DNA from: Deltaproteobacteria bacterium
Lineage (GTDB): Bacteria > Bdellovibrionota_F > JAHFAK01
Length of the DNA: 13,244 nucleotides
NCBI GenBank assembly: GCA_023250585.1
Contig: JAHFAK010000066.1
Coordinates: 1 to 13,244 of the forward strand
Direction of reading: 5' to 3'
A program made the position numbers and the translations under genes. The notes under the pieces are model-generated. The model saw only the letters and a program-made list of their open reading frames with translations, did no database searches and had not been told where the DNA came from. This document shows, piece after piece, positions 1-13,244 of this stretch (positions within the stretch are counted from its first letter, which is position 1; each line of letters opens with the position of its first letter).

Positions 1-459
1 ATTTAAAAGTCCGCGTAAATCTTCCATAATTTCTTTTGTTTTTAACATTTGGGCTTCATCAATTAAAAGCACGGTTTTTTTATGTGCATGCGCTCGATCT
101 AAAAGCTTGTCACAAATATCTTTCATGGTATCCTGTTTGGTTGAACGAGTCGGTTCAACGCCTAATTGAGACGCAATTTTTTTTAAAAAAATAAATGCAT
201 CTATATTCGTTTGGACAATAACGAGCAATGAAGCAAAATATTTAGATTCATCCAAACTTCTGAGAACTTTTCGAGCAATCGTCGTTTTGCCCGTCCCGAT
301 ATCTCCAACAAGAAGAGCTAAGCCACGAGTATTTTCTATAGCATGCATTATTCTGAGATATGCGCGATGATGTTCGTCGCTATTGAAATAAAAACGCGAT
401 CCAACCGGTTCATTAGAAAAAGGCTCTTTTTTGAGTCGATAAAACTCTAAATAATTCAT
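1..459 (-). CDS. ExeA/GspA-family AAA ATPase, 3' end cut by window edge
   Basis: Only the first 153 codons are present; the gene runs out of the window on the left. The protein begins MNYLEFYRLKKEPFSNEP, the typical opening of ExeA/GspA-like ATPases (short 'Y-x-F-Y-x-L-x-x-x-P-F' leader), followed by a Walker A motif GDIGTGKT at about residues 52-59 and a Walker B LLIDEAQ at about 131-137. Family members use ATP either to help secretin assembly through the cell wall in type II secretion (GspA/ExeA) or in transposition (TniB-like). The leader and the D-E-A-Q box fit the secretion/pilus branch better, and a secretin gene lies at the other end of this window, but the peptidoglycan-binding C-terminus that would settle it is not visible. 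The start at 459 is the only Met before the conserved leader. No Shine-Dalgarno is seen; a TANNNT box sits six bases upstream. Confidence 0.8.
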   Translation of the reverse strand, partial: MNYLEFYRLKKEPFSNEPVGSRFYFNSDEHHRAYLRIMHAIENTRGLALLVGDIGTGKTTIARKVLRSLDESKYFASLLVIVQTNIDAFIFLKKIASQLGVEPTRSTKQDTMKDICDKLLDRAHAHKKTVLLIDEAQMLKTKEIMEDLRGLLN

Positions 460-465
460 ATTTTT

Positions 466-494
466 ATAGTAAAGTCAGCGACATGAAAAATCAA
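466..494 (-). promoter_or_regulatory. Putative promoter of the ATPase gene
   Basis: Read on the minus strand, TTGATT (494-489), a 17-base spacer and TACTAT (471-466) are followed by six bases and then the ATG at 459. Transcription would begin at or next to the start codon, so the mRNA would be leaderless. Both hexamers are imperfect (each 4 of 6 to consensus). Confidence 0.4.
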
Positions 495-517
495 ATAGAT
501 AAAATCTGAGTTAGTTC

Positions 518-543
518 AGCGAAGATGTGAATGCATCTTCGCT
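518..543. repeat. Perfect inverted repeat between divergent genes
   Basis: AGCGAAGATG (518-527) is repeated exactly inverted as CATCTTCGCT (534-543) with a 6-base centre. It lies between the two divergent promoters, with no T-run on either side, so an operator for a dimeric regulator or a cruciform/REP-like element is more likely than a terminator. The binding protein is unknown. Confidence 0.5.
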
Positions 544-555
544 CACTCTTCAGTC

Positions 556-585
556 TTGATATAAATAAAAAGAGAATGCTACCAT
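556..585 (+). promoter_or_regulatory. Putative promoter of the MgtE_N/CBS gene
   Basis: TTGATA (556-561), an 18-base spacer and TACCAT (580-585) are followed by six bases and ATG at 592. The layout mirrors the divergent ATPase promoter and predicts a leaderless transcript; there is no Shine-Dalgarno next to the start. Confidence 0.35.
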
Positions 586-591
586 GCTATT

Positions 592-1836
592 ATGTTCTTT
601 GTAAGCAAGTTTCAGAATAACTCAATCATCGATGCAGCCAATAAAAAAATTGGCAAAGTAAAAGATCTTGTTGCATCATTATCCAGTGATTACCCACAAA
701 TCACTGCTCTTGAAATAAAAAAAAATGGAAATAGTTCGATCGTTATCGATTGGAGATTTGTTCGGGTTTTTGAGGAATCGAGTATTTTTTTAGGATTTAA
801 GATAGATGACATTCCCGTAAAAACATTAAAAGAAGACGAAGTTTTTCTTATTAAAGATCTTTTAGATAAACAAATAGTCGACACCGAAGATAGAAAAGTT
901 ATTCGAGTTCAGGATATTCAGCTATCGCGAATCAATAATACGCTGCGAATCATGGCTGTGGATATAAGCTTTCGCGCAGTTATTCGACGATTAGGCTTGG
1001 ATTTTTTAACTCATCGCCTCGATACGAGTCCAAACATAAATCTCATTGACTGGAAAAGCATTAATCTTATTAGTCGAAAATTTACCAACTTAAAACTAAA
1101 AGTCTCGCAAGAAAAACTTTCTGTTTTACATCCTTCCGATATTGCAGAAATTGTAAGTACTCTTTCGCCAAAAGAACGAACGGCGATTCTTGCATCACTC
1201 GACGAAGGAACAGCAGCAGATACAATCGGGGAACTCGATGAATCACAACAGGCAGATGCTCTTTCTCTTTTAGGAAAAGCTAAAGCGGGAGCGATTTTAG
1301 GAGAAATGGCTCCCGATGAAGCAGCTGATGTTATTGGAGATCTTCCACAAGAAAAAGCAAATGAGCTCTTGCGTCTCATGGATGAAGATGAAGCAGCAGA
1401 AGTAAAAGAACTTCTCGAATACCCTGAAAACTCTGCAGGCGGAGTGATGACGACTGACTATATTTCTGTTAATCCTGAATTGAAAGCAGAAGATGTAATA
1501 AACTTTTTAAGAAAAGAAGAGCATAACGACGATAATTTTTATTATATATACGTCACCGATCCTCATCATCAACTGCTTGGAGTTTTTTCATTAAAAGAAC
1601 TGATTCTTGCGCACCCTTCCCAAAAGGTAAAAACATTCATGAGCGCTCATCCGGTTACCGTTTCACTCCTTGATGATCAAAAAGAAGCTGCGGCAAAAAT
1701 AGCAAAATACAACCTCACCGCTATCCCTGTCATCGATACCTTCACTCACATTAAAGGCATCATCACGGTCGATGATGCGCTCGATATTGTCCTTCCTACG
1801 GCCTGGAAAAAAAGAGTTCCTAAGATGTTCAAATGA
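592..1836 (+). CDS. PRC-barrel / MgtE N-terminal / CBS-pair protein without a transporter domain
   Basis: The 414-residue soluble protein has three parts. Residues 1 to about 150 look like one or two PRC-barrel-like beta units (N-terminal VSKFQNNSIIDAANKKIGKV). Residues about 176-280 form an MgtE N-domain, a run of short helical repeats recognised by LHPSDIAEIVSTLSPKER and the repeated 'DEAADVIGDLP' type units. Residues about 286-340 and 347-402 are two CBS motifs, starting with the joint PENSAGGVMTTDYISV that links MgtE_N to CBS in true MgtE magnesium channels. The five-helix membrane channel domain of MgtE is absent: the chain ends KKRVPKMFK right after CBS2. Known MgtE N/CBS domains sense cytosolic Mg2+ or nucleotides, so a cation- or nucleotide-sensing regulatory role is inferred; the partner transporter is not in this window. 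It stands as a single gene upstream of dnaA. Confidence 0.85.
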   Translation: MFFVSKFQNNSIIDAANKKIGKVKDLVASLSSDYPQITALEIKKNGNSSIVIDWRFVRVFEESSIFLGFKIDDIPVKTLKEDEVFLIKDLLDKQIVDTEDRKVIRVQDIQLSRINNTLRIMAVDISFRAVIRRLGLDFLTHRLDTSPNINLIDWKSINLISRKFTNLKLKVSQEKLSVLHPSDIAEIVSTLSPKERTAILASLDEGTAADTIGELDESQQADALSLLGKAKAGAILGEMAPDEAADVIGDLPQEKANELLRLMDEDEAAEVKELLEYPENSAGGVMTTDYISVNPELKAEDVINFLRKEEHNDDNFYYIYVTDPHHQLLGVFSLKELILAHPSQKVKTFMSAHPVTVSLLDDQKEAAAKIAKYNLTAIPVIDTFTHIKGIITVDDALDIVLPTAWKKRVPKMFK

Positions 1837-1888
1837 CTTCAGGATGTTCAGATAAAAAAAAGATTGCATATTGATTTTTTTTTATATA

Positions 1889-1917
1889 TTCTCAATAGCT
1901 ATCTGCAAGAATATTAT
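1889..1917 (+). promoter_or_regulatory. Candidate dnaA promoter
   Basis: TTCTCA (1889-1894), a 17-base spacer and TATTAT (1912-1917) would start transcription near 1924, giving a leader of about 35 bases. That leader contains AGGAG (1942-1946), a Shine-Dalgarno 12 bases before the dnaA ATG. The -35 is weak (4 of 6). No DnaA box was seen in this spacer. Confidence 0.3.
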
Positions 1918-1958
1918 GTTGATTAATAGGAACTTTTGAGTAGGAGTCGCAACTGCTT

Positions 1959-3314
1959 ATGACCACAAATATCACTGTCTGGAAAGAAATTCTTGATTCA
2001 ATAAAAAAACAAATAAATTCCCCGTATATTATTGCCTGGCTTGAACCTTTGGCAATACGGACAATTTCTGATACGCGGATTATCCTCGAAGTTCCGAATG
2101 ATTTTTGGCTTGTCTGGATTCAAAAAAACTATTTAGAAATGATTAAAAATACCTGCAAAGAAGTTCTGAAAAAAGATTTTCAGGTCGCTTTAGAAATAAA
2201 TACAAAGCTCACCGAAAAGCTTGATGAAGAAATGCCTACTTCAGAAAATGAAGCCGAACTGATTAATAAAAATTTTCAAAAAAAAATCGAAGGTTCTCTT
2301 TTAAATAAAGAATATATCTTTAATGAATTTATTGTGGGACCGAGCAATCAGTTTGCTCATGCGGCATCGATTGCCTGTGCAAACAATCCGGGCGAAAACT
2401 ACAATCCACTGTTTATCTACGGCGGAGTTGGATTGGGAAAAACGCATCTTGTACATTCAATTGGCAATCAAATGATCAAAAATAATCCCTCGCTTAAGAT
2501 TTGTTATCTGAGCGCTGAAAAATTTATGAATGAACTCATATCATGCATTAAGTATGACAAGATGAATGAATTTCGCAATAAATATCGCCAAAACTGCGAT
2601 GCGCTTTTACTCGACGATGTTCAATTTCTTGCAGGAAAAGAAAGAACGCAGCTCGAATTCTTTCACACCTTCAATGCTCTTTATGAAGAAAGAAAACAAA
2701 TCATTATTACAAGCGATAAGTTTCCAAAAGATATTCCAACTCTCGAAGAGCGTCTCCGCAATCGATTCGAATGGGGATTGATTGCTGATATACAACCACC
2801 TGAACTCGAAACACGGATAGCGATTCTTAAACGAAAAGCAGAAAGCAATAAAATGAATCTTCCGGATGATGTAGCTCTCTATCTTGCAACAAATATACGA
2901 AATAATATTCGAGAGCTCGAAGGTTCGCTCATTCGTCTTGAGGCTTATTCTTCATTAACAGGCATAGCTCTATCTCTGGATCTTGCAAAAGACATTTTGA
3001 AAAACATAATTCAAGATAGCGACAAGAAATTAAAACTCGAAGACGTTCAAAAACATGTTGCTCAATTTTTTAATATAAATACAACTGAATTAAAATCGGC
3101 AAATAAGAAAAAGTTTATAGCTTTTCCACGACAAATAGCCATGTATCTCACGAGAAAACATTTCAACATTTCTTTTCCTGAAATAGGAAATATCTTTGGG
3201 GGAAGAGATCATTCAACAGTTATCCACGCCGTTAAAAAGATTGAAGACAAAATGAAAAATGATAAAAATTTATCGGTAACTCTTGAGACCATTGAAAAGA
3301 ATTTACAGGCATAA
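1959..3314 (+). CDS. dnaA: Chromosomal replication initiator protein DnaA
   Basis: DnaA binds origin boxes as an ATP-dependent filament and melts the origin so that the helicase can be loaded. The 451-residue chain has the standard order. Domain I (about 1-80, with W8 and the 'NDFWLVWIQKNY' region) is followed by a short variable linker (about 80-115). The AAA+ domain III carries Walker A GGVGLGKTH (155-163) and Walker B LLLDDVQF (216-223). Domain IV ends with the box-binding signature GGRDHSTVIHA starting at G414. Length and motifs are typical for the family. The start at 1959 has AGGAG 12 bases upstream and gives a normal domain I. The gene points toward the dnaA-dnaN spacer, which carries the origin features. 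Confidence 0.98.
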   Translation: MTTNITVWKEILDSIKKQINSPYIIAWLEPLAIRTISDTRIILEVPNDFWLVWIQKNYLEMIKNTCKEVLKKDFQVALEINTKLTEKLDEEMPTSENEAELINKNFQKKIEGSLLNKEYIFNEFIVGPSNQFAHAASIACANNPGENYNPLFIYGGVGLGKTHLVHSIGNQMIKNNPSLKICYLSAEKFMNELISCIKYDKMNEFRNKYRQNCDALLLDDVQFLAGKERTQLEFFHTFNALYEERKQIIITSDKFPKDIPTLEERLRNRFEWGLIADIQPPELETRIAILKRKAESNKMNLPDDVALYLATNIRNNIRELEGSLIRLEAYSSLTGIALSLDLAKDILKNIIQDSDKKLKLEDVQKHVAQFFNINTTELKSANKKKFIAFPRQIAMYLTRKHFNISFPEIGNIFGGRDHSTVIHAVKKIEDKMKNDKNLSVTLETIEKNLQA

Positions 3315-3533
3315 AATTTCTGTGTGGAAAATACTGTTGATATCCTGTGAGTGAGTTATGGATAAAATGTTAATCAATTCGATCAATAAACAAAACACAA
3401 AAAATATACCAACATTTATACAGAGAGAAATTTCATTTTCCATAATAGAATTTACACGTTACAAAACGATACACAAATCCACAGCTACTACTACTACTAT
3501 ATTTATATATAAATAATATAAGAAGGAGAACAT
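3315..3533. other. oriC: Putative oriC in the dnaA-dnaN spacer
   Basis: This 219-base gene-free spacer holds degenerate DnaA boxes. Compared with TGTGGATAA/TTATCCACA, they are TGTGGAAAA (3323-3331, one mismatch), TGTTGATAT (3335-3343, two), TATGGATAA (3357-3365, one), TTTTCCATA (3436-3444, two, opposite orientation) and AAATCCACA (3475-3483, two, opposite orientation). The last box is followed after one base by five CTA triplets (3485-3499) and then an almost pure A/T stretch (3500-3520). Box, triplets and AT-rich segment in this order match the basal unwinding system described for Bacillus subtilis. The adjoining dnaA and dnaN genes and the change from loose spacing to a long spacer here support the call; replication has not been shown. 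Confidence 0.75.
3485..3499. repeat. DnaA-trio-like array: five CTA triplets
   Basis: CTA is repeated five times without interruption. On the other strand this reads 3'-GAT-5' five times, which fits the DnaA-trio consensus 3'-(G/A)A(T/A)-5' that guides the DnaA filament onto one strand. It begins one base after a DnaA-box-like site (3475-3483) and ends at the AT-rich segment, as expected for a functional trio. Confidence 0.65.
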
Positions 3534-4658
3534 ATGGAATTTAAAATACCTAAAAATTTATTTATAAAAGCATTAGCAAAAACTATCTCAATAGCAGAAA
3601 AAAATATAGGACATGTGCTTTCAAATATTTTGATTGAAGGAGATAAAGATACCATTACATTTAAATCAACCGATTTAGAAATTGCACTCATACAGCAGTA
3701 TCCTATTTCTTTGCTTAAAAAAGGATGCGTTGTCGTAAGCGCTCGAAAATTATATGATATCATTAAAGAATTTCCCGATAAAGATATTGATGTTGCCGTG
3801 GATGAACGATTTAAAATGGAGCTTGTGTCAGGTAAAACGCGCATAAGATTAAATGGAATAGAACCTTCTGAATTTCCAAAAATTCCTGAATATAAAAAAG
3901 ATAAATTTTTTAAATTAGAGACCGATAGCCTTTTAGATATGATTGAAAAAACAGTTTTTGCAACAAGCAACAACGAAACAAAAAGAATTTTGAATGGCGT
4001 GTATTTTGAAAAAATAATGAGAGAAGAAAAGAAATTTATTCGAATGATTGCTACCGATGGACATCGATTATCGATAATGGATAAAGAAGTAGAAAATTGG
4101 AATAAGATCAATATTACCGAAGGAGTTATTATTCCTAAAAAAGGGCTCAACGAATTAAAGCGAATTTGCGAAGACGAAGCATCTGAAGTTTCTTTTAATT
4201 TTGTGGATAATAATTTTGTCGTTATTGGAGATAATACAACGCTCTCTATGAGATTACTTCAAGGAGGATATCCTAATTATCAACAAGTTATCCCCAAGCG
4301 GAATGAAAATACAATGATCGTAAATCGCGTTGAATTAATTAATGCGCTTAAAAGAATGTCTTCCATTTGTTCTCTCACCGATGAATTTAAAAAAGTACTC
4401 TTTACCGTAGAAGGATCAAAATTATCTCTGTATTCAAAATCCCCCGAGCTCGGAGAAGCTAATGAAGAATTTGATGTTGAATACATCGGCATGCCTCTCG
4501 AAGTTTCATTTAACTCAAAATTTTTTATTGAAGCATTAAATGTCATGAATAATGCCGAAAAAGTTCGTATAAAATTTGGAGATAAAGAAACACCTGCCCT
4601 TCTGTATTATGTTAATTCGGCAGAATATCTCCATTTAATAATGCCGCTTCGTTCGTAA
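3534..4658 (+). CDS. dnaN: DNA polymerase III beta subunit (sliding clamp)
   Basis: The ring-shaped clamp tethers DNA polymerase and many repair proteins to DNA. The 374-residue length and the three repeated clamp folds match the family: start MEFKIPKNLFIKALAKTISIA, middle 'FVRMIATDGHRLSIMDKE'-like segment seen here as IRMIATDGHRLSIM, and C-terminal end YYVNSAEYLHLIMPLRS, where the M-P-L/R region shapes the client-binding pocket. A strong Shine-Dalgarno AAGGAG (3523-3528) lies five bases before the ATG. Its leader overlaps the AT-rich end of oriC. recF follows after 22 bases, so the two are probably cotranscribed. Confidence 0.98.
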   Translation: MEFKIPKNLFIKALAKTISIAEKNIGHVLSNILIEGDKDTITFKSTDLEIALIQQYPISLLKKGCVVVSARKLYDIIKEFPDKDIDVAVDERFKMELVSGKTRIRLNGIEPSEFPKIPEYKKDKFFKLETDSLLDMIEKTVFATSNNETKRILNGVYFEKIMREEKKFIRMIATDGHRLSIMDKEVENWNKINITEGVIIPKKGLNELKRICEDEASEVSFNFVDNNFVVIGDNTTLSMRLLQGGYPNYQQVIPKRNENTMIVNRVELINALKRMSSICSLTDEFKKVLFTVEGSKLSLYSKSPELGEANEEFDVEYIGMPLEVSFNSKFFIEALNVMNNAEKVRIKFGDKETPALLYYVNSAEYLHLIMPLRS

Positions 4659-4680
4659 GCAGAGTTTTTGCCTGAAATGT

Positions 4681-5805
4681 ATGTATCTAAACAGTATTTC
4701 TCTTCTCAATTTCAGAAATTTTGAATCGTTAAAACTTGATTCAATGAAAAGAATTAATGTTTTTATTGGAAAGAATGCTCAAGGCAAAACAAATTTTATT
4801 GAAGCAATTTATCTTTTAGGCGCGCTTCGCTCTTTTCGTGGTTCAAAAAAGGAAGATATAATTATGAAAGGAAAAGATTCGTCGACTATCGTAGCGGAAA
4901 TAGGCAAGGATGGCTTAACAAAAGACCTTGAGCTTAATTTATCCAAAGATAAAAAAAATATTCGAGTTAATCATCATACCGTTTCTCATATGGAAGATTA
5001 TTATCGCGATTATCGAGTCGTAACATTTACGCCGGATGATACTATGCTTATCAAAGGCCTGCCTGAAGAAAGAAGGAATTTTTTAAATAGAGGAATCGTA
5101 ACCTATAATCCAATCTATTATCGAGTATATCGTAATTTTTCAAAAGCCCTTGATTCAAAAAAAATGCTTCTAAAAAATGATCGAGTACAAAAAAATGATC
5201 TCAGGCTGTGGAATAAAGAATTAGCAAAATACAGCGCGCCTATTTATATTGAACGAGAATCATTTATCAATGCGCTCAATGAACGCATTGCCCCTATATA
5301 TGAAAAAATTTCTCATAAAAAAGATTCTCTGTGTCTGACGTATATCCCCTCTTCTGGGCTTATTGATGTATCTCTCGATATAAAATCTGAAACCTTTCAA
5401 GATGATCTCGAAAATCTTTTGAATGGAAGATTAGATGAAGAAATTTTTTCACGGCATTGTTTAATTTCTCCAACCCGAGATGATATAGCCTTTAGTTTAA
5501 AAGATCTTTCTGCAAAAAACTATGCGTCTCAGGGAGAAATTAAAACAATCATACTGGCCTTGAAAATAGCCCACCTTGAGCATGTCTATTCAGTAACCGG
5601 CGAATATCCCGTCTTTTTACTCGACGATATTTCAAGCGAATTAGACGAAACCCGCCGATCATTTTTAATGAAATATCTTCAAGAAAAAAATATTCAAATT
5701 TTTTTAACAACGACAAAGTTTGATAATTATTTACAAGACATGAATAGTAATGATTATTCTCTCTATAAGGTCGAAGAAGGAAAAATTATACATTATGTTT
5801 CGTAA
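4681..5805 (+). CDS. recF: DNA replication and repair protein RecF
   Basis: RecF is an ABC-type ATPase that binds gapped DNA and helps load RecA during gap repair. The 374-residue protein shows the SMC-like layout: N-terminal LLNFRNF, Walker A GKNAQGKT (30-37), ABC signature SQGE (283-286) and Walker B with D-loop VFLLDDISSELD (about 311-322). Length is typical. No clear Shine-Dalgarno precedes ATG 4681, and an ATG at 4677 is out of frame. The gene sits 22 bases after dnaN, and the start of dciA lies inside its 3' end, so translation is probably coupled along the operon. Confidence 0.97.
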   Translation: MYLNSISLLNFRNFESLKLDSMKRINVFIGKNAQGKTNFIEAIYLLGALRSFRGSKKEDIIMKGKDSSTIVAEIGKDGLTKDLELNLSKDKKNIRVNHHTVSHMEDYYRDYRVVTFTPDDTMLIKGLPEERRNFLNRGIVTYNPIYYRVYRNFSKALDSKKMLLKNDRVQKNDLRLWNKELAKYSAPIYIERESFINALNERIAPIYEKISHKKDSLCLTYIPSSGLIDVSLDIKSETFQDDLENLLNGRLDEEIFSRHCLISPTRDDIAFSLKDLSAKNYASQGEIKTIILALKIAHLEHVYSVTGEYPVFLLDDISSELDETRRSFLMKYLQEKNIQIFLTTTKFDNYLQDMNSNDYSLYKVEEGKIIHYVS

Positions 5806-6259
5806 AGAACGTTTCCAAAGGCCCAATATATCTTTTCTCGTTGATAAATGTGTCGGTAAAGGCGTGACCCTGTATATGAAAATCTGTAAACTGTGGCCAG
5901 AAATAGTTGGAGAAAAGATTTCCAATAACTCAATGCCCTCTTTTATTGCCAGAAATAAACTCTATGTAAATGTCTCCAGCGCTCCCTGGAAAAACGAACT
6001 TGAATTTTTAAAAAACAACGTGCTCATTAAAATAAATGAGAAAATAAAACCGTATTTTATTAGAGAAATCCATTTTAAAATTGGTTCGATCGACAAGATT
6101 GGTTCCAATTCTACATCAAGAACTCTTCCCCAAAGTGTAAGTAAAAAAAATCTTGAGCTTATTGAAGATACTTCTCATGGCATTAAAGATCAGGCGCTTA
6201 AAGATATATTTAAAAATGCAATGCTGAGATCGTATAATAAGAAGAAGGAAAACGCATGA
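5795..6259 (+). CDS. dciA: DciA (DUF721), replicative helicase loader/operator
   Basis: DUF721/DciA proteins interact with the DnaB helicase in most bacteria that lack DnaC or DnaI loaders. The 154-residue protein has the diagnostic core 'LWPEIVGEKISNNSMPSFIARNKLYVNVSSAPWKNEL' region (quoted as LWPEIVGEKIS and LYVNVSSAPWKNELEFL), that is W-P-x-I-V-G, the beta-strand pair and the W-x-x-E-L helix. The start at 5795 was chosen over the in-frame ATG at 5750 because residues before MFRKERFQRP have no family counterpart and lie in recF; GAAGAAGG is 14 bases upstream. It overlaps recF by 11 bases and hemL by 4. The position directly after recF is the common place for this gene. Confidence 0.88.
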   Translation: MFRKERFQRPNISFLVDKCVGKGVTLYMKICKLWPEIVGEKISNNSMPSFIARNKLYVNVSSAPWKNELEFLKNNVLIKINEKIKPYFIREIHFKIGSIDKIGSNSTSRTLPQSVSKKNLELIEDTSHGIKDQALKDIFKNAMLRSYNKKKENA

Positions 6260-7530
6260 GAAAACGATCCGCTGAACTTTATCAAAAAGCCTTGTCTCTT
6301 ATCCCTGGCGGCGTTAATTCGCCGGTTCGGGCATTTAAGTCAGTTGGGATGGAGCCCTTATATATAGATCACGGGAAGGGTTCCAAAATATATGATGTTG
6401 ATGGAAATGAATATATCGATTACGTAGGATCTTTTGGCCCATTGATTTTAGGGCATGCGCCAGCTGAAATTATAGAAACCATCAAAGAGTACGCAGAAAA
6501 AGGATTAAGCTTTGGAGCGTGTCACGCACAAGAAGTGACGTTTGCATCGCTCATCACGAAAGCCTTTCCATCTCTCAATAAAGTTCGTCTGGTAAATTCC
6601 GGAACTGAAGCGGTTATGAGTACGCTTCGGCTTGCTCGTGGGTATACGGGGAAAGACATTATAATTAAATTCGACGGTTGCTATCATGGCCATGCTGATT
6701 CAATGCTTGTTGCCGCTGGTAGCGGTGTAGCAACTTTGGGAATTCCAGGAACTCCAGGTATTCCACAGGCCCATGCGCACACAACGCTCTCTCTCCCTTA
6801 TAACAATATCGAAGCTGTTAAAAAGGCCATAGCTGAGCATAAAAACAATATTGCGGCTGTAATCGTGGAACCTATTGCCGGAAATATGGGAGTAGTACTA
6901 CCCCAAGAAAATTTTTTACAGGAACTCCGCTCAATTACGGCAGAAAACAAAATTCTTCTTATTTTTGATGAAGTAATTACGGGTTTTCGTTTGTGCTATG
7001 GCGGCGCGGCAACATATTTTGGCAGTAGTCCTGATATTATTTGTTTGGGTAAAATTATTGGTGGAGGCATGCCCATTGGCGCTTTTGGCGGCAAAAAAGA
7101 AATTATGGACTGCATAGCCCCCGAAGGCAACATCTACCAGGCAGGAACGCTCAGTGGCAACCCTATTGCTGTTGCTGTGGGAATAAAAACACTGGAGCTT
7201 TTACAAAACAAGGATTATCGAATAATTGAGCAAAATACGCTCTATCTCACGAAAGAAATAGAAAAAAGAGCACACAAGAAAAATGTTCCCATACGTATAA
7301 ATTCAATAGGATCTTTGTTTACTGTTTTTTATAGTCACTATCCAGTTTATGATTATATAACTGCAAAAGAATCAAACCCTGAACATTTTAAAAGAACTTT
7401 TAAAAGGCTCCTTGATTCGGGAATTTTTATTCCGCCAAGCCAGTTTGAAGCATCGTTTCTCTCTTTTGCTCATGACCAGTCTGATTTGGAAAAAACTGCT
7501 GCTGCCTATGATCATTCATTCTCGGAATAA
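6256..7530 (+). CDS. hemL: Glutamate-1-semialdehyde 2,1-aminomutase
   Basis: This PLP enzyme converts glutamate-1-semialdehyde to 5-aminolevulinate, the C5-route precursor of heme and other tetrapyrroles. The 424-residue length and motifs match: opening LIPGGVNSPVRAFKSVG, LVNSGTEAVMSTLRLARGYTG, GCYHGHADSML, the FDEVITGFR aspartate region, and the PLP-binding lysine in CLGKIIGGGMPIGAFGG (K266, close to K265 of E. coli). Its ATGA overlaps the dciA stop, with AAGGA seven bases upstream, so it is translated from the replication operon. No other tetrapyrrole gene is in the window; a broader class III aminotransferase is less likely given the GGVNSPVRAF and GGGMPIGAFGG blocks. Confidence 0.95.
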   Translation: MRKRSAELYQKALSLIPGGVNSPVRAFKSVGMEPLYIDHGKGSKIYDVDGNEYIDYVGSFGPLILGHAPAEIIETIKEYAEKGLSFGACHAQEVTFASLITKAFPSLNKVRLVNSGTEAVMSTLRLARGYTGKDIIIKFDGCYHGHADSMLVAAGSGVATLGIPGTPGIPQAHAHTTLSLPYNNIEAVKKAIAEHKNNIAAVIVEPIAGNMGVVLPQENFLQELRSITAENKILLIFDEVITGFRLCYGGAATYFGSSPDIICLGKIIGGGMPIGAFGGKKEIMDCIAPEGNIYQAGTLSGNPIAVAVGIKTLELLQNKDYRIIEQNTLYLTKEIEKRAHKKNVPIRINSIGSLFTVFYSHYPVYDYITAKESNPEHFKRTFKRLLDSGIFIPPSQFEASFLSFAHDQSDLEKTAAAYDHSFSE

Positions 7531-7544
7531 GTTATCTTTCTTTG

Positions 7545-7572
7545 TTGATAATTTATTCATGTCCATTATAAT
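7545..7572 (+). promoter_or_regulatory. Strong promoter before the HAMP-like membrane protein
   Basis: TTGATA (7545-7550, 5 of 6) and a perfect TATAAT (7567-7572) are separated by 16 bases. Transcription should begin near 7579, two to four bases before the ATG at 7582, leaving no room for a ribosome-binding site. It starts a new unit after hemL. Confidence 0.65.
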
Positions 7573-7581
7573 AATTAAACT

Positions 7582-8259
7582 ATGGCTTTTCATTTTCGAA
7601 GAAGAAAGTATCTTCTCAGTAAAGAACTTCAGTTAAAATATACCTTAATTGTAACGCTCGTTTGTGCAGCTATTACGATTGGATTGAGTTTTTATATAAG
7701 TAAACTCGCCAAAGAAAATTCGAATTTGATTTATGAGCTTTCGGATGCAAAGAAAAATTTGCTTGAAGTTTTTCAACTCATTCCTGACTTAAATGATTCT
7801 TTGAAGTCTAAATTTGCCCAAGAAACAACAATGACCGAAGAAAAAATGCGAGATACGGTAATGAGAAATCAACGCCTTCCCTTTTTTCTCGGCATTTTTC
7901 TGTTATTAATTATTATGGTTATCTTTGTTGGAGGAATTATTTTTACGCATCGGATTGTCGGCCCGATGTATGTATTTTCCAACTATTTGAAAACACTGAT
8001 ACAGGGGCAGATCCCCGATATCCGTCAGTTGCGAAAACACGATGAATTTAAAAATTTTCGAGATGATCTTTCGTTATATGTTCAGGAATACAAACAAAGA
8101 AAAGTTGATGATAACGAAAAAGACCTTTTCTTTTTGCATAATATTCTTTCTCTTATTGATAGTAATAACATTAATAAAGATTTGGCAAAGGACACGATCC
8201 TGAAATTCATTGATGAAAAGAAGAACGAGAATAAATCTCTGTCTGAAGATATCGCATAA
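7582..8259 (+). CDS. Two-TM inner-membrane protein with HAMP-like domain
   Basis: I do not recognise a named family for the full protein. The 225 residues start with a basic cytoplasmic stretch (MAFHFRRRKY), then TM1 at about 20-42, an external region of about 55 residues rich in helix formers, and TM2 at about 100-123. A HAMP-like segment follows (about 124-172: HRIVGPMYVFSNYL, IPDIRQLRKHDEF, FRDDLSLYV), with its G-P and D-E-F landmarks. The tail (about 173-225) is charged and has no kinase, methyl-accepting or cyclase domain. Such layouts resemble the sensor half of chemoreceptors and histidine kinases; a signalling or scaffold role is inferred only. coaE starts 16 bases downstream and may be cotranscribed. 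Confidence 0.7.
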   Translation: MAFHFRRRKYLLSKELQLKYTLIVTLVCAAITIGLSFYISKLAKENSNLIYELSDAKKNLLEVFQLIPDLNDSLKSKFAQETTMTEEKMRDTVMRNQRLPFFLGIFLLLIIMVIFVGGIIFTHRIVGPMYVFSNYLKTLIQGQIPDIRQLRKHDEFKNFRDDLSLYVQEYKQRKVDDNEKDLFFLHNILSLIDSNNINKDLAKDTILKFIDEKKNENKSLSEDIA

Positions 8260-8275
8260 AATTCTGTAGAATAGC

Positions 8276-8890
8276 ATGAAACATAAACCTATTATTGTAG
8301 GGCTCACCGGAGGGGTTGGTTCTGGAAAAACCGAAGCGACGCTTTTTTTAAGAAAAAAAGGGTTTACCGTCATTGATGCTGATGAAATTTCTCATTCAAT
8401 TACGCAACCGGGAATGTCCGGATACCAAAAAATTCTCAAAATATTTGGCAATGGAGTTCTTAATTCCGGAAGTGAAATTGATAGAAAAAAACTAGGTGAG
8501 CTTGTTTTTAATGATGAAACCAAGCGAAAACAGCTTGAATCCATACTTCATCCGCTTATTCTTACTGAAATACAAACCCAAATTGCAGCTCATCAAGATG
8601 AATCGATCATTTTTGTTTCAATTCCTCTTTTAATCGAAACCGGTTCTTTTAAGGGAATGAATTGTTCCCTGTTGATCTATGCTCCTCAAGATATACAACT
8701 TCAGCGTTTAATTACTCATCGTAAGCTGCCTCGGGAGTATGCTGAAAAAATTCTTGCCGCTCAAATACCTATTAAAAACAAGCAACAACGTGTGGATTAT
8801 GTTGTGGATAATTCGGGAACATTAGAAGAGCTTCATAATAATCTTGAAAAAGCGCTCAAAAAATTGTGTGACCAGATAGACCCAAGTTAA
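8276..8890 (+). CDS. coaE: Dephospho-CoA kinase
   Basis: CoaE phosphorylates the ribose 3'-OH of dephospho-CoA, the last step of coenzyme A synthesis. The 204-residue protein has the P-loop GGVGSGKT (12-19) after a beta strand (IIVGLTG), the DADEISH motif that binds substrate, ILHPLI, the FVSIPLLIETG segment and a C-terminal DYVVDNSG, all standard for the family and length. No clear Shine-Dalgarno is seen; the short distance from the membrane-protein gene suggests readthrough. An inverted repeat overlaps its stop codon. rho, which often neighbours coaE in other bacteria, lies beyond the accessory genes that follow. Confidence 0.96.
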   Translation: MKHKPIIVGLTGGVGSGKTEATLFLRKKGFTVIDADEISHSITQPGMSGYQKILKIFGNGVLNSGSEIDRKKLGELVFNDETKRKQLESILHPLILTEIQTQIAAHQDESIIFVSIPLLIETGSFKGMNCSLLIYAPQDIQLQRLITHRKLPREYAEKILAAQIPIKNKQQRVDYVVDNSGTLEELHNNLEKALKKLCDQIDPS

Positions 8891-8916
8891 CGGGAGAATA
8901 ATTCCTCCCATTAACT
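8885..8916. terminator. Hairpin over the coaE stop codon, possible weak terminator
   Basis: AGTTAACGGGAG (8885-8896) and CTCCCATTAACT (8905-8916) pair with one mismatch around an 8-base loop. The stem is strong for this AT-rich DNA but is not followed by a T-run, so it may only protect the 3' end or be part of a repeat. Confidence 0.35.
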
Positions 8917-8934
8917 GAATAATTGCATAAGGCA

Positions 8935-8963
8935 TTGACTTCTATGTTATTTTAAAATAACAT
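8935..8963 (+). promoter_or_regulatory. Candidate promoter of the MNT/HEPN pair
   Basis: TTGACT (8935-8940), a 17-base spacer and TAACAT (8958-8963) would start RNA near 8970. A second -10-like box, TATAAG (8970-8975), lies six bases before ATG 8982. Both lie inside the tandem palindromes, so a bound repressor would block polymerase. Confidence 0.45.
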
Positions 8964-8983
8964 ATGTTATATAAGAATAACAT
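8944..8983. promoter_or_regulatory. Tandem palindromic operator, 2 x ATGTTAT-N6-ATAACAT
   Basis: Two 20-base inverted repeats abut exactly: ATGTTATTTTAAAATAACAT (8944-8963, a perfect palindrome) and ATGTTATATAAGAATAACAT (8964-8983, perfect 7-base arms). They cover the -10 region and the start codon of the MNT gene. Arms, spacing of one repeat every 20 bases (about two helical turns) and position fit paired dimers of a winged-helix repressor on one face of DNA; the MNT protein itself has such a domain, so autoregulation is inferred. Confidence 0.7.
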
Positions 8984-9593
8984 GACTTTTAACAATATCA
9001 TTAATAATTTTCTCGGTGATAGAATTAATCTTTTAGTATTACAGGTGCTTTATCATCAAAAAAATGGAGTGTCAGGACGTATGATGAGCCGCTTGGCGAA
9101 TGCATCTGTTTTTAAAGTACATCATGTCCTCAAGTTTCTAGTAAGACAGGGCGTAGTAAAAGAAGAAATATTTGGAAAAACTCACCGATACCAAGTGAAT
9201 AGAAACCATATTCTTGTAAAGGAACTTTTAAACCCGATTGTGCATTTCGAGCAAAATATTTTCCAAGATCTGGGAATGAAGATTGCTCATGCATATGATC
9301 CACATCCTTTATCTGTGGTGCTCTACGGAAGCGTTGCACGAGGAGAAGAAAAACCGGACAGCGACATAGACATTGCGCTTATTACTCATACAGCCACAAC
9401 GTATGTAAAAAAAGACGGTTTTATCGCAGATCTTATCACACTGTATGGAAATACAATCTCGATACGAGTTATTCCTTTCGATGAGTTTCGAAAGAAAAGA
9501 CAAAAAAAACATGATCCATTGATTCGTGCTATTATAAAAGAAGGAAAATCAATATATGGAAAATCTTTTATAGAATTATTTGGGAACCTCTAA
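8982..9593 (+). CDS. Winged-helix / MNT-type nucleotidyltransferase (antitoxin-like), C-terminus altered by insertion
   Basis: The protein (203 residues from this start) joins a winged helix-turn-helix domain (about residues 14-74: RINLLVLQVL, SRLANASVFKVHHVLKFLVRQG, HRYQVNRNH) to a minimal nucleotidyltransferase (about 108-185) with the catalytic pattern G-S-V-A-R-G-E-E and S-D-I-D-I, that is GS followed by DxD (D128 and D130 in this numbering). MNT proteins act as antitoxins by adding AMP to partner HEPN toxins in known MntA/HepT pairs. I chose ATG 8982 over 8964 because 8964 lies inside the operator and upstream of the likely RNA start; 8964 adds six residues. The final codons GGG AAC CTC and the stop come from the foldback element that begins at 9582. 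Without that element the frame would continue for 13 residues (KKNMLLEEPITRE) and stop in an ATGA overlap with the next gene. Confidence 0.8.
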   Translation: MTFNNIINNFLGDRINLLVLQVLYHQKNGVSGRMMSRLANASVFKVHHVLKFLVRQGVVKEEIFGKTHRYQVNRNHILVKELLNPIVHFEQNIFQDLGMKIAHAYDPHPLSVVLYGSVARGEEKPDSDIDIALITHTATTYVKKDGFIADLITLYGNTISIRVIPFDEFRKKRQKKHDPLIRAIIKEGKSIYGKSFIELFGNL

Positions 9594-9705
9594 AAACTAT
9601 CCATTTACTTCGTTGTCAACCTATGAGTAATCCTCACGTATTAGCAATACGCTCCGGTTGCTCATAGGTTGACGCCTTGTATCTGGGCACTTTTTAGAGG
9701 TTCCC
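9582..9705. mobile_element. 124-bp foldback (MITE-like) element
   Basis: The ends GGGAACCTCTAAAAA (9582-9596) and TTTTTAGAGGTTCCC (9691-9705) are perfect 15-base inverted repeats, extended to 17 by flanking TT/AA. Inside is a second perfect pair GTCAACCTATGAG (9615-9627) / CTCATAGGTTGAC (9661-9673), and at the centre CGTATT (9637-9642) / AATACG (9646-9651). The whole element can fold into one long hairpin; the segments between the pairs look like decayed arms. It has no coding capacity for a transposase and no obvious target duplication, so it is probably a non-autonomous element moved by an unseen transposase. It supplies the stop codon of the upstream gene. Its RNA hairpin could also separate the expression of the two genes. 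Confidence 0.7.
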
Positions 9706-9743
9706 AAGAAAAACATGTTATTAGAGGAGCCCATTACACGAGA

Positions 9744-10151
9744 ATGACTAGAAAAATCATTACAAAAAATGTTTCTCGAGAAAACTATCGCAGTTATAGG
9801 GGAAAGGCATTACAATTCTACGGAGTGATGAATATATGCTTACAAGATAGAGAATGGGATGCCGTATTACTCAATGGAGTACATGCAAGCATTAGTATGT
9901 GCGATGCATTAACGGTATTTCATGCAGGTAAGCATTCAAAGAGCGCGCATCATAGAGATGCCGCTCTTTTACTAGCCGAGAGCATTCCAAGTGACAAGAA
10001 CATCAATAAAAATGTACAGCGTCTTTGCGAAATTATTGATGAAAAAAATCTTATCGAATATCAACCAAAGCGATTTCAAGAACAGGAAGCCTTTTCATTT
10101 GCCCTTAAAGTAGAACGATTTTTCGAGTGGGCGAAGGCATTATTGCCTTAA
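9744..10151 (+). CDS. HEPN-like partner protein of the MNT gene (putative toxin)
   Basis: The 135-residue, mostly helical protein has a HEPN-like pattern: helix with YRGKALQFYGVMNICLQ, then WDAVLLNGVHASISMCDALTVF (the 'N-x-x-H/Y-A-x-x-x-x-x-D' helix typical of HEPN and related HTH-less bundles), then KHSKSAHHRDAALLL and a C-terminal helix with VERFFEWAKALL. HEPN/MNT pairs are toxin-antitoxin modules in which HEPN is often an RNase. However, no R-x4-6-H motif is present in this protein, so RNase activity is uncertain. The start at 9744 follows AGAGGAG (9723-9729); the longer in-frame start at 9669 lies inside the foldback element and is rejected. The family call rests on pattern and context, not on a search. 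Confidence 0.65.
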   Translation: MTRKIITKNVSRENYRSYRGKALQFYGVMNICLQDREWDAVLLNGVHASISMCDALTVFHAGKHSKSAHHRDAALLLAESIPSDKNINKNVQRLCEIIDEKNLIEYQPKRFQEQEAFSFALKVERFFEWAKALLP

Positions 10152-10236
10152 TTAGGGAGCGGATTATCTCCGTTCATCATTTTTGCCAAAGCGAGAATCC
10201 AGAGTAACCCCGCCTAATAACTGAAGGATTACAGCC
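10152..10236. other. Gene-free spacer after the HEPN gene
   Basis: No gene is seen. The stretch includes GGAG/CTCC able to form a short hairpin just after the HEPN stop (10156-10173) and a segment AAGCGAGAATCCAGA (10189-10203) that resembles the 3' half of the GTCATTCC-type dispersed palindromes of many proteobacteria. The segment 10218-10241 imperfectly repeats 8912-8934 on the other side of the island. Confidence 0.4.
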
Positions 10237-10364
10237 AGGCAACAAAAGCTCAACTTACCGCAGTTTTAAAGAGGAAGTCTCAGGTCGTCATTCCGCAGCT
10301 TGACCTCGGAATGACGATCAAGAAGATTATAATCTAAACTGCGGTAAGGTGAGGCAACAAAAGT
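10237..10364. repeat. Palindromic element flanked by 12-bp direct repeats
   Basis: AGGCAACAAAAG occurs at 10237-10248 and again at 10353-10364. Between them lie 104 bases with outer inverted repeats CTTACCGCAGTTT (10254-10266) / AAACTGCGGTAAG (10337-10349) and inner TCGTCATTCCG (10285-10295) / CGGAATGACGA (10307-10317). Terminal inverted repeats inside direct repeats are the mark of an inserted small mobile element with target duplication. It lacks coding capacity. It sits just upstream of the likely rho promoter. Confidence 0.6.
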
Positions 10365-10367
10365 AGT

Positions 10368-10395
10368 TGACAAATATAAAAATTTGATTATTTTA
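10368..10395 (+). promoter_or_regulatory. Putative rho promoter
   Basis: A perfect TTGACA (10368-10373), a 16-base spacer and TATTTT (10390-10395) would start RNA near 10402 and give a rho leader of about 200 bases. The -35 begins 4 bases after the flanking repeat of the palindromic element, so the insertion is close to removing or creating this promoter. Confidence 0.5.
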
Positions 10396-10401
10396 TAGAA
10401 A

Positions 10402-10599
10402 AATAACTTTTATCAAAAACGTATACATTAAGTAATCTTTTTTATTTCACATGACATTAGATAAACGTTCTAAATTAATTACTATCAAAGGAGATTTCAT
10501 ATATTAACCATTCATCTGATACTAATGTGTCCGTATCTTACAATGCTATCTCATTAAAATAATTATATATTTCATTTATTAACTGAAAGGGAAAGTTCT
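10402..10599 (+). other. Long AT-rich rho leader with possible short leader ORFs
   Basis: About 200 bases separate the putative start of RNA from rho. A short ORF at 10451-10507 encodes MTLDKRSKLITIKGDFIY, with no clear ribosome-binding site. A strong AAAGGAG (10487-10493) is followed seven bases later by ATA, not ATG. A 10-residue ORF starts at 10525. rho genes in other bacteria are autoregulated through a leader, so a regulatory role is plausible, but no attenuator structure was recognised. Confidence 0.25.
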
Positions 10600-11847
10600 A
10601 TGAATCTTAATGAACTCAAAGAAAAAAGTATTGGCGACTTAACAAAAATTGCAAAGGGCCTAAATGTTGAAGGCTTTTCTGTAATGCGTAAGCAAGAGCT
10701 TATTTTTGCTGTTTTACAAGCGCAAGCAGAAAAAGATGGAAATATTTATGGTGCAGGTGTTTTAGAAATTTTACCCGATGGCTTTGGTTTTCTTAGAACA
10801 CCGAGCTATAATTACCTCCCCGGTCCTGATGATATTTATGTTTCTCCTTCGCAAATTCGAAAGTTTAATTTACGAACGGGAGATACAATTTCAGGACAAA
10901 TTCGACCTCCTAAAGATAGCGAACGTTATTTTGCTCTTTTAAAAGTTGATGAGATCAACTTTGAAGATCCAGAAAAAACAAAAGACAAAATCATGTTTGA
11001 TAACCTTACCCCTATTTATCCTAACAAAAAATTTGATTTGGAGCATAAGCCGACTAATTATTCATCCCGAATTATGGATCTTTTAACTCCCATTGGAAAA
11101 GGCCAGCGCGCGCTTATTGTTGCTCCTCCTCGTACCGGTAAAACAATGTTACTTCAAGATATTGCCCATGCAATTATGGCTAATTCAAAAGAGGTTATTT
11201 TAATGGTTCTCCTCATTGATGAACGTCCAGAAGAAGTTACCGATATGGAAAGAAGCGTTAAAGGAGAAGTTATTAGCTCTACATTTGATGAGCCTGCGCA
11301 ACGTCACGTACAGGTTGCTGAAATGGTTATTGAAAAAGCAAAGCGTCTTGTTGAGCATGGAAAAGATGTCGTTATTTTATTGGATAGTATTACGCGTCTT
11401 GCTCGAGCATATAACACCGTTGTTCCTCCAAGTGGAAAGGTATTATCTGGAGGCGTTGACTCAAACGCGCTTCATCGTCCAAAACGATTCTTTGGAGCGG
11501 CTCGAAATATCGAAGATGGCGGAAGCCTCACGATTATTGCTACAGCACTCATTGATACCGGAAGCCGTATGGATGAAGTTATTTTTGAAGAGTTTAAGGG
11601 AACAGGAAACCTTGAAATTCATCTTGATCGAAAACTCGTTGAGAAGAGAATATTCCCTGCAATTGATATCAATAAATCCGGCACGAGAAAAGAAGAATTA
11701 CTGCTCGATAAGAGTGTTCTTAATAAGGTTTGGGTTCTCCGTAAAGTTCTCAGTCCATTAAATGCTGTTGATAGTATGGAATTCTTGCTTGATAAATTCA
11801 CTAAAACCAAAGGAAATGGCGATTTTCTTGCTTCCATGAACCAATAA
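10600..11847 (+). CDS. rho: Transcription termination factor Rho
   Basis: Rho is a hexameric RNA helicase that ends transcription at unstructured C-rich RNA. The 415-residue protein has an N-terminal helical cap ([21 protein letters not shown]), an OSB cold-shock-like RNA-binding domain ([29 protein letters not shown]), and the ATPase core with Walker A APPRTGKT (175-182), Walker [19 protein letters not shown]-loop segments [20 protein letters not shown] and the C-terminal [30 protein letters not shown] region (quoted in parts: [23 protein letters not shown]). It matches the compact rho length with no inserted N-terminal domain. AAAGGGA (10586-10592) lies seven bases before the ATG. Confidence 0.98.
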
Positions 11848-11905
11848 TCCTAAACCCAGCACGGCTTTTCAAATGGAAGTTTTTTCATAGCAGAGTTTAT
11901 TAAAA

Positions 11906-11929
11906 CGCTCATTATGTGGGCGCTTTTTT
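11906..11929 (+). terminator. Putative Rho-independent terminator after rho
   Basis: CGCTC (11906-11910) pairs with GGGCG (11918-11922) around a 7-base loop, followed by C and six T (11924-11929); AAAA just before the stem can pair with part of the T-run. A second, weaker CTTTTC/GGAAG stem with a T-run occurs just upstream near 11867-11886. Confidence 0.5.
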
Positions 11930-11971
11930 GCTCTTATATGCTGGACTTTCGTATGTTATTGAATTTACACG

Positions 11972-12038
11972 TATAATATTGCTAAGCATCATTGTAGTTT
12001 TTTGTGATTTTGGCATACATTTTGCTCATTACTATAAG
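11972..12038 (+). promoter_or_regulatory. Candidate promoter region of the secretin gene
   Basis: Two possibilities are seen. One is a perfect TATAAT (11972-11977) with only a weak -35. The other is TTGGCA (12010-12015), 17 bases, TATAAG (12033-12038), which ends only three bases before ATG 12042; the overlapping TACTAT (12030-12035) is six bases before it. No Shine-Dalgarno precedes the ATG, which favours a leaderless start from the second. Confidence 0.4.
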
Positions 12039-12041
12039 TGT

Positions 12042-13244
12042 ATGCGAATATTTATACCCTTTATATTCTTCTTTATTTTTATTAATGAGCAATTTCCCTA
12101 TGTTGTTATAGCTCAAGAGAAGGCCAAGACAGCTCCAGAAGAGACCGATGATGTTGAAGTATATGATCCATCTTCTGCTCCAAAAGGAGAAGCTGCTGCA
12201 TCTGATAAAGATGAAGAAACGATAGAATTAAATTTCAGCAATGCTGATCTTCGATCGATTATTCGTGAAATATCTGAATTTACTAAGAAACATATTGTAT
12301 TTCCTGATAGTTTAAGCGGAAAAGCAACTCTTTTTTCCCCTCGTCCATTGAAGCAAGATGAAGTCCTTGAAGCTTTAGTTTCCCTTCTTTCTGTTAAAGG
12401 ATGGACAATTGATAAGTCTAACCCTACTATTTGGAAAATAATCAAAGCAGAAGAAGTCAATAAGACTTCAGAGATAGATAAAGATGGCAATCTTAAAGAT
12501 TCGGACCTTTATATCACTTCATTCATTCCTATTAAATATATCGATGCTGGGCAGATTGCAGATACGCTTAAGGAAATGGTCTCCAATATGAAGGTATATA
12601 AAGATACTAATACTATTATTGTGACGGATACAAAAAGCAAAGTTAATCGCCTCAAAGAAATGATTGCAAAATTAGATAAAGAAGGTTTCGATGAAAATAT
12701 CGAACATATTCGTCTTAAAAATGCCATTGCCGAAGATGTTGCTCGGAAGTTAGGAGAAATTATTGATATTGCAGGAGGCTCCAAAAAAGATACAAAATTT
12801 CCTTTTACAGGCACCGGAGGGGAATCAACGGAGTTTAAAGGTCGGAGAATTATTTCTAAAGTAATTGCCGATCCGAGAACAAATTCAATTATTGTCAAAG
12901 GAAATGATAGTGGTATTGAAGAAGCTCGTAAGCTCATTGCAGATCTCGATTCAGAAATCACCGATGAAAAACAAGAAACGCGGGTTTTTGTATACCAACT
13001 CGAACATGCCGAAGCGGAATCTCTGGCGAGTATTTTATCAGGGGTTATAAAAGGTATAGCACCTGAGAAAAAAAGTATTTTTGCTAAGGAAGAAGAAGGT
13101 CTTACCTTAGGCGGAAAAAATCTCAACGTTACAGCAGATAAAAAAACAAACTCACTCGTTATTGCGGGAACTTATTCGGGCTATCAATCAATTGTGCCTA
13201 TTATTAAAAAACTCGATCTGAAGAGGAAGCAAGTTCAGATTGAA
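12042..13244 (+). CDS. gspD: Secretin GspD/PilQ-type outer-membrane channel, 3' end cut by window edge
   Basis: The first 401 codons of a secretin are present. A signal peptide (MRIFIPFIFFFIFI... cleavage likely after VVIA, residue 24) is followed by an acidic linker. Then come an N0 domain (about 62-136: IELNFSNADLRSIIREIS, KHIVFPDSLSGKATL) and three KH-like N domains: N1 about 158-213 (FIPIKYIDAGQIADTL), N2 about 219-305 (HIRLKNAIAEDVARKL, ADPRTNSIIVKG) and N3 about 314-392 (VFVYQLEHAEAESLASIL, TADKKTNSLVIAG). The window ends at KQVQIE, the first strand of the secretin barrel domain. N0 plus N1-N3 is the GspD arrangement of type II secretion; a pilus or competence secretin cannot be excluded without the pore domain and neighbours. 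Start chosen because it is the only Met before the signal peptide. Confidence 0.88.
   Translation, partial: MRIFIPFIFFFIFINEQFPYVVIAQEKAKTAPEETDDVEVYDPSSAPKGEAAASDKDEETIELNFSNADLRSIIREISEFTKKHIVFPDSLSGKATLFSPRPLKQDEVLEALVSLLSVKGWTIDKSNPTIWKIIKAEEVNKTSEIDKDGNLKDSDLYITSFIPIKYIDAGQIADTLKEMVSNMKVYKDTNTIIVTDTKSKVNRLKEMIAKLDKEGFDENIEHIRLKNAIAEDVARKLGEIIDIAGGSKKDTKFPFTGTGGESTEFKGRRIISKVIADPRTNSIIVKGNDSGIEEARKLIADLDSEITDEKQETRVFVYQLEHAEAESLASILSGVIKGIAPEKKSIFAKEEEGLTLGGKNLNVTADKKTNSLVIAGTYSGYQSIVPIIKKLDLKRKQVQIE

Follow-up and report, generated by a model that had tools for sequence, protein, structure and literature searches.

Positions 9582–9732 of the 13,244-nt stretch of DNA that we analysed (the window; contig JAHFAK010000066.1, positions 1 to 13,244) are very probably one copy of a non-autonomous, MITE-like transposable repeat that consists of a hairpin and a tail and was inserted at the overlap of a minimal nucleotidyltransferase (MNT) gene and a HEPN-like gene. 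That the repeat is mobile follows from its many copies in the source genome together with the 4-bp target duplications that accompany them. The features of the locus are as follows.

9582–9732, + strand: mobile element in full, 151 bp, made up of hairpin and tail (26 genome copies aligned; target duplication statistics)
9578–9581, + strand: left copy of the target-site duplication, ATTT, matching the right copy at 3 of 4 bases (duplication statistics; sequence)
9733–9736, + strand: right copy of the target-site duplication, ATTA (duplication statistics; sequence)
9582–9596, + strand: left tip and outer stem arm, GGGAACCTCTAAAAA, in which GGG AAC CTC TAA provides the current MNT end, GNL-stop
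9691–9705, + strand: right outer stem arm, TTTTTAGAGGTTCCC, which is the inner right end
9706–9732, + strand: 27-nt tail ending in the second terminal repeat, TTAGAGGAGCCC, with AGAGGAG inside at 9723–9729
9600–9687, + strand: conserved hairpin body as modelled across phyla, CCATYTRC..CGTTG ... CGCCTTGTATCTGG (cross-phylum alignment and covariance model)
9631–9657, + strand: apical core, TCCTCACGTA...TACGCTCCGG, with a conserved 4x4 internal loop
8964–9593, + strand: winged-helix and MNT gene, its 3' end changed by the element (Pfam Polbeta / NTP_transf_2; PADLOC PDC-M05A; MNT alignment)
9744–10151, + strand: HEPN-like partner gene lacking RX4-6H (homology via locus L062; HEPN alignment)

The element begins with a two-part hairpin of 124 bp, to the right of which lies a tail of 27 nt; this tail closes with the left tip repeated in inverted form. 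As in other MITEs, it is short and free of a transposase (151 bp, no ORF inside) and is bounded by terminal inverted repeats, with tips GGGAACCTCT and AGAGGNNCCC; its ends can be used as the search pair GGGNACCTCT / AGAGGNNCCC. The original prediction had placed a foldback at 9582–9705, and this stretch is indeed a strong inverted repeat, with a folding energy of -65.8 kcal/mol and a z-score of -10.2, such that 0 of 200 shuffles folded as well. It had also taken 9705 as the end of a 124-bp element, a boundary that is ruled out by the alignment of the copies and by the target-site duplication test: the copies stay alike for 27 nt beyond this point, to 9732, and the duplication test is positive at the 9732-type end alone. 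These 27 nt recur in 13 of the 16 copies of the window's subfamily, and when the copies were aligned with their flanks, the tail of about 27 nt beside the hairpin read AAAAAAACATAGTTATTAGAGGTGCCC in subfamily 1 and TGAAATACGAGTTTTTCAGAGAGTCC in subfamily 2. The tail is missing from three copies. Because TTTA is duplicated immediately next to the hairpin end in one of these, on contig C94, the inner end may be usable as well.

Searching the source genome with the 124-bp sequence returned 15 further copies at 80–87% identity, plus partial and remote ones, and tip searches added a second subfamily with tips GGGAACCTCTSAAAA, yielding about 28 copies in two subfamilies, the multi-copy state expected of a MITE. 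The search for further copies in the same genome, proposed with the original prediction, thus supports a mobile repeat. A 35-bp internal-deletion copy (G000:C45:1797-1831) consists of the two tips alone, GGGTATCTCTAAAAACATAGTTATTAGAGATACCC, without the hairpin, and is flanked by a perfect TAAT on both sides. Separately, three solitary fragments made up of the tail and the right arm were observed (G000:C14:12974, C6:14431 and C161:2619; L084, L085 and L083, respectively), and the C6 fragment lies directly 5' of the ATG of a response-regulator-like ORF, with GGAG adjoining.

To quantify the target duplication, we compared the bases flanking 23 copies with shuffled controls. At the 9732-type end, 62 of 92 bases matched at a length of 4 bp, compared with 40.0 in the shuffles, and none of 5000 shuffles did as well; the right ends of the copies were set by homology, which leaves a few of them partly ambiguous. 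Seven copies showed exact 4-bp duplications (TATA, ATTA, TAAT, TCAA, ATAA, TTTA and TAAA), the flanks showed no surplus of matched bases over shuffles at lengths 3 and 5, and the 9705-type hairpin end gave nothing significant at length 4 and no exact match. The duplication of the window copy is itself imperfect (ATTT/ATTA, 3 of 4 bases), and it is over the family that the fixed length expected of a MITE is seen. Over the family, then, insertion duplicates 4 bp of an AT-rich target. The element would have been moved in trans, by a transposase that acts on its tips. Our search for an autonomous element with matching ends, which covered DDE transposases, found none: the three located in the draft assembly (DDE_Tnp_1 and DDE_Tnp_1_2 matches) were ruled out as the autonomous partner by their different ends. 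No plasmid in a plasmid search carried the whole element, and the only other genome of the phylum is free of it.

The insertion in the window had been thought recent. The window copy is among the most diverged, however, differing from the subfamily consensus by 12.7% as against 4–9% for most other copies, so that a recent insertion is not indicated. All 41 consensus pairs of the hairpin still form in it.

The copies lie at the ends of genes. In 14 of 17 copies in full-length loci, with uncurated ORFs serving as a proxy for genes, an ORF of 110 aa or more has its stop codon within 12 nt of a tip, compared with a background of 17–19% of tolerated positions that near a stop in 120 kb of the same genome (binomial P ~3e-8, or 5e-6 with the two +12 cases counted as failures). 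The usual offsets are -1, 0 and +1, that is, the stop lies in the duplication or is made with the tip as TA|G, and an offset of +12 corresponds to the tip's own TAA, as in the MNT gene. The simplest reading combines an AT-rich target with selection against gene damage; a preference for gene ends is possible, and we infer that target preference, selection or both account for the placement. Given this clustering at stop codons, the MNT/HEPN junction is a site of the usual kind for the family.

The hairpin is conserved as a structure. Across the 26 copies, 95.6% of the cells pair and 18 of the 41 pairs have changed on both sides; double-change cells number 92, compared with 32.7 in shuffled alignments (0 of 500) and 2–13 in slid versions. 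Even the outermost bases covary (GGTGACC/GGTCACC, GGCAACC/GGTTGCC, GAAAACC/GGTTTTC). From these compensatory changes it is clear that the fold has been maintained; the covariation can mean either selection on the folded strand or self-templating of the palindrome. The minus strand folds more stably in most of the 26 copies, and the pair types do not settle which strand folds.

The hairpin extends far beyond the source genome. A covariance model built from an alignment of the window, Desulfobacter and Scalindua copies matched 26 of 386 genomes, mostly of unrelated families, at E <= 1e-4 (25 of the 385 other than the source genome), where about 0.04 would be expected by chance if the E-values, which are rough, hold; among the matches listed, genomes other than the source carry up to 10 copies. 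The core pattern was found in 16 IMG/VR stretches and in at least 103 stretches of GTDB contigs, from Enterobacterales, Microbulbifer, Gallionella, Desulfobacter, Candidatus Scalindua and others. The Desulfobacter and Scalindua copies have the whole hairpin body in common with the window but carry other terminal repeats, and their tail also ends in a second inverted tip. At locus L232, the tip is nearly identical to that of the window, GAAACCTCTCAAAAAGG. In about 8 of 28 loci from other genomes, a stop codon stands just 5' of the left outer stem. Separately, a relative in a Desulfobacter postgatei MAG (L121, 600-780) is flanked by an apparent 9-bp duplication, CAATAATTA, rather than one of 4 bp, a difference that suggests a different mover for the same hairpin at that locus.

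In E. coli, a repeat with the same apical core occurs in 5,375 of 5,426 genomes, at a median of 5 places, and no annotation lies beneath it among the matches listed. This enterobacterial repeat of about 120–150 bp, which we presume to be the RSA repeat, resembles the element in its apical core, AATCCTCACGTACT..AGTACGCTCCGGTTG, and in its overall hairpin, and the covariance model scores it at 43–53 bits, values that are partly circular because the loci were picked by the core pattern. It differs in its terminal repeats (for example, TTAGAGCCTATCCC..) and lacks the CCCATCTGC / GCATCTGGG lower stem.

Together, these comparisons raise the possibility, which we hold only tentatively, that one mobile structured module spans bacterial phyla: the hairpin, with its body CCCATCTGC..CGTTG / CG-CTTGCATCTGGG, two conserved internal loops and an apical core, would be combined with different terminal repeats in many phyla and lie right after stop codons in a preferred orientation. 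Its upkeep by compensatory change would then be due to the reading of the folded strand by a conserved factor, either of the host or of transposition. A related alternative, which we consider conceivable although rather doubtful, takes the element for more than a passive MITE and gives the hairpin a function as a conserved RNA or single-stranded DNA module at gene 3' ends, where it would act in termination, mRNA stability or mobility through single strands and would owe its spread to transposon ends of different kinds. This alternative is favored by the strong covariation, by the recurrence of the hairpin across genomes, including the Desulfobacter and Scalindua copies with their other terminal repeats, and by the stop codons just 5' of the left outer stem at several of those loci. 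Palindrome pairing can, however, also be kept by template switching or gene conversion, the placement of the copies is explicable by selection against gene disruption, and the hairpin has no poly-T tract and so is not a normal intrinsic terminator. It is the hairpin family that gives the finding its wider interest: a short non-coding repeat whose hairpin is recognizable across phyla, covaries, sits at stop codons, and is absent from Rfam and from the papers searched offers a testable case of bacterial 3' ends gaining mobile structure.

Far less likely is movement by an HUH (Y1) transposase, which would place the repeat among the single-strand elements of REP/REPIN or IS200/IS605 type. The imperfect hairpin, the location at gene 3' ends and the conserved structure would all fit such an element, but the 4-bp target duplications do not, given that elements of these types are not known to make any, and 9582–9732 contains no GTAG tag.

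Neither the window nor any hairpin from eight related loci reached the gathering score of a known RNA family in Rfam 15, and a literature search by sequence letters found nothing relevant to the hairpin. The Box C / PIT triplex repeat (PMC4666352) was ruled out by its different sequence, and YPAL/RU-2 because its printed sequence does not match. Judged by its description, the best described analogue appears to be QMITE2 of Coxiella burnetii (PMC5896051), a structured MITE of 150–190 bp that is present in many copies, mostly in 3' untranslated regions, overlaps gene 3' ends by 1–10 bp, and lengthens at least one protein. It differs in its 7–11 nt direct repeats, which vary in sequence, in its internal GTAG REP and in being a target of IS1111. 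The enterobacterial repeats ERIC and RU-1/RU-2 (YPAL) (PMC2759123) are likewise small and mobile, and some are fused to gene 3' ends with an altered C-terminus, but the printed RU-2 and RU-3 sequences lack this core and the ends are different.

The MNT protein has an N-terminal winged helix, matches Pfam Polbeta / NTP_transf_2, resembles the PADLOC candidate PDC-M05A, and carries the GSX10DXD motif as GSVARGEEKPDSDID; against the NCBIfam MntA model, it scores 37.3 bits, under the cut-off of 60. Its partner in the window has no Pfam match of its own and no PDB relatives by sequence, and we identify it as HEPN because its homologue at L062 matches PF05168 at 3.9e-8. Five aligned HEPN partners share K-N-x3-Y, at the site where active HEPNs carry RX4-6H (PMC3710099), and RX4-6H is absent from all five, so the identity of the HEPN protein as a toxin is doubtful and, judging from these sequences, toxin/antitoxin wording for the pair does not seem warranted. 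The arrangement resembles type VII HEPN/MNT (HepT/MntA) modules (PMC7641770, PMC3710099) in that the MNT gene is upstream with GSX10DXD intact and the HEPN gene directly downstream; unlike in those modules, the MNT here has a winged helix at its N-terminus and the HEPN lacks RX4-6H.

As the original prediction described, the MNT frame reaches the element at GGG 9582 and ends at TAA 9591–9593; the HEPN ATG is at 9744, so that 150 nt now separate the HEPN start from the MNT stop. When the element and one target copy (155 bp) are removed, the resulting empty site would encode an MNT of 210 aa ending in ...KSIYGKSFIELFHEND-stop, that is, ...IELFHEND-stop with four native extra residues, HEND, and an 8-nt overlap with the HEPN ATG. 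Removal of the 151 bp alone would give an MNT ending in ...FITRE and a 4-nt overlap. Removal of 124 bp, from which a restored frame and ATGA overlap had been deduced, is arithmetically right but leaves 27 nt of the element in frame. The 13-residue native MNT tail deduced in this way proved to be partly element sequence (KKNMLLEEP), and the AGAGGAG assigned to the native MNT 3' end lies within the tail of the element.

In homologous MNT/HEPN pairs that are free of the element, the two frames overlap, by 4 nt (L062), 4 nt (L046), 8 nt (L048) and 17 nt (L047), making overlap the rule and the window the exception; the L062 MNT ends in GELITK-stop, with a 4-nt ATGA overlap with its partner. The homologues thus bear out the expected overlap, but the 13-residue tail is absent from all aligned MNT homologues. 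Close MNT relatives were absent from the GTDB contigs and a close relative with an empty site from the sequence collections, so the pre-insertion frame is a reconstruction; loss of the overlap by insertion is nonetheless well supported, with the original overlap deduced from the empty site and the homologues. It is scarcely credible that a recent 124-bp foldback cut off a 13-residue tail (MNT ending KKNMLLEEPITRE) along with the SD of a toxin gene and shifted a toxin/antitoxin balance, since, although the frame is kept and an ATGA overlap appears on removal, the copies share 27 nt past 9705, no target duplication marks the 124-bp end, no homologue has the tail, the window copy is old and the HEPN lacks RX4-6H.

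Our preferred reading is that the MITE-like element inserted, with a 4-bp duplication, into an AT-rich target in the last MNT codons, where MNT would have overlapped the HEPN start by 8 nt. The insertion gave MNT its GNL-stop end and moved the two frames 150 nt apart, with a very stable hairpin in the gap. HEPN probably now starts independently, perhaps using as its ribosome-binding site the AGAGGAG at 9723–9729, which comes from the right tip of the element and lies 14 nt 5' of the HEPN ATG. A mobile repeat thus appears to have swapped translational overlap for a hairpin-bearing gap, making the locus a natural test of the need for coupling.

Two further observations concern HEPN genes. The HEPN partner at L046 (G039:C71, 1054-1266) is missing its N-terminal half and has a length of only 70 aa, yet it still overlaps its MNT by 4 nt. 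In the window, a second foldback lies 3' of the HEPN gene, at 10238–10350, formed by CTTACCGCAGTTTTAAA ... TAATCTAAACTGCGGTAAGG around GTCATTCCGCAGCTTGACCTCGGAATGAC.
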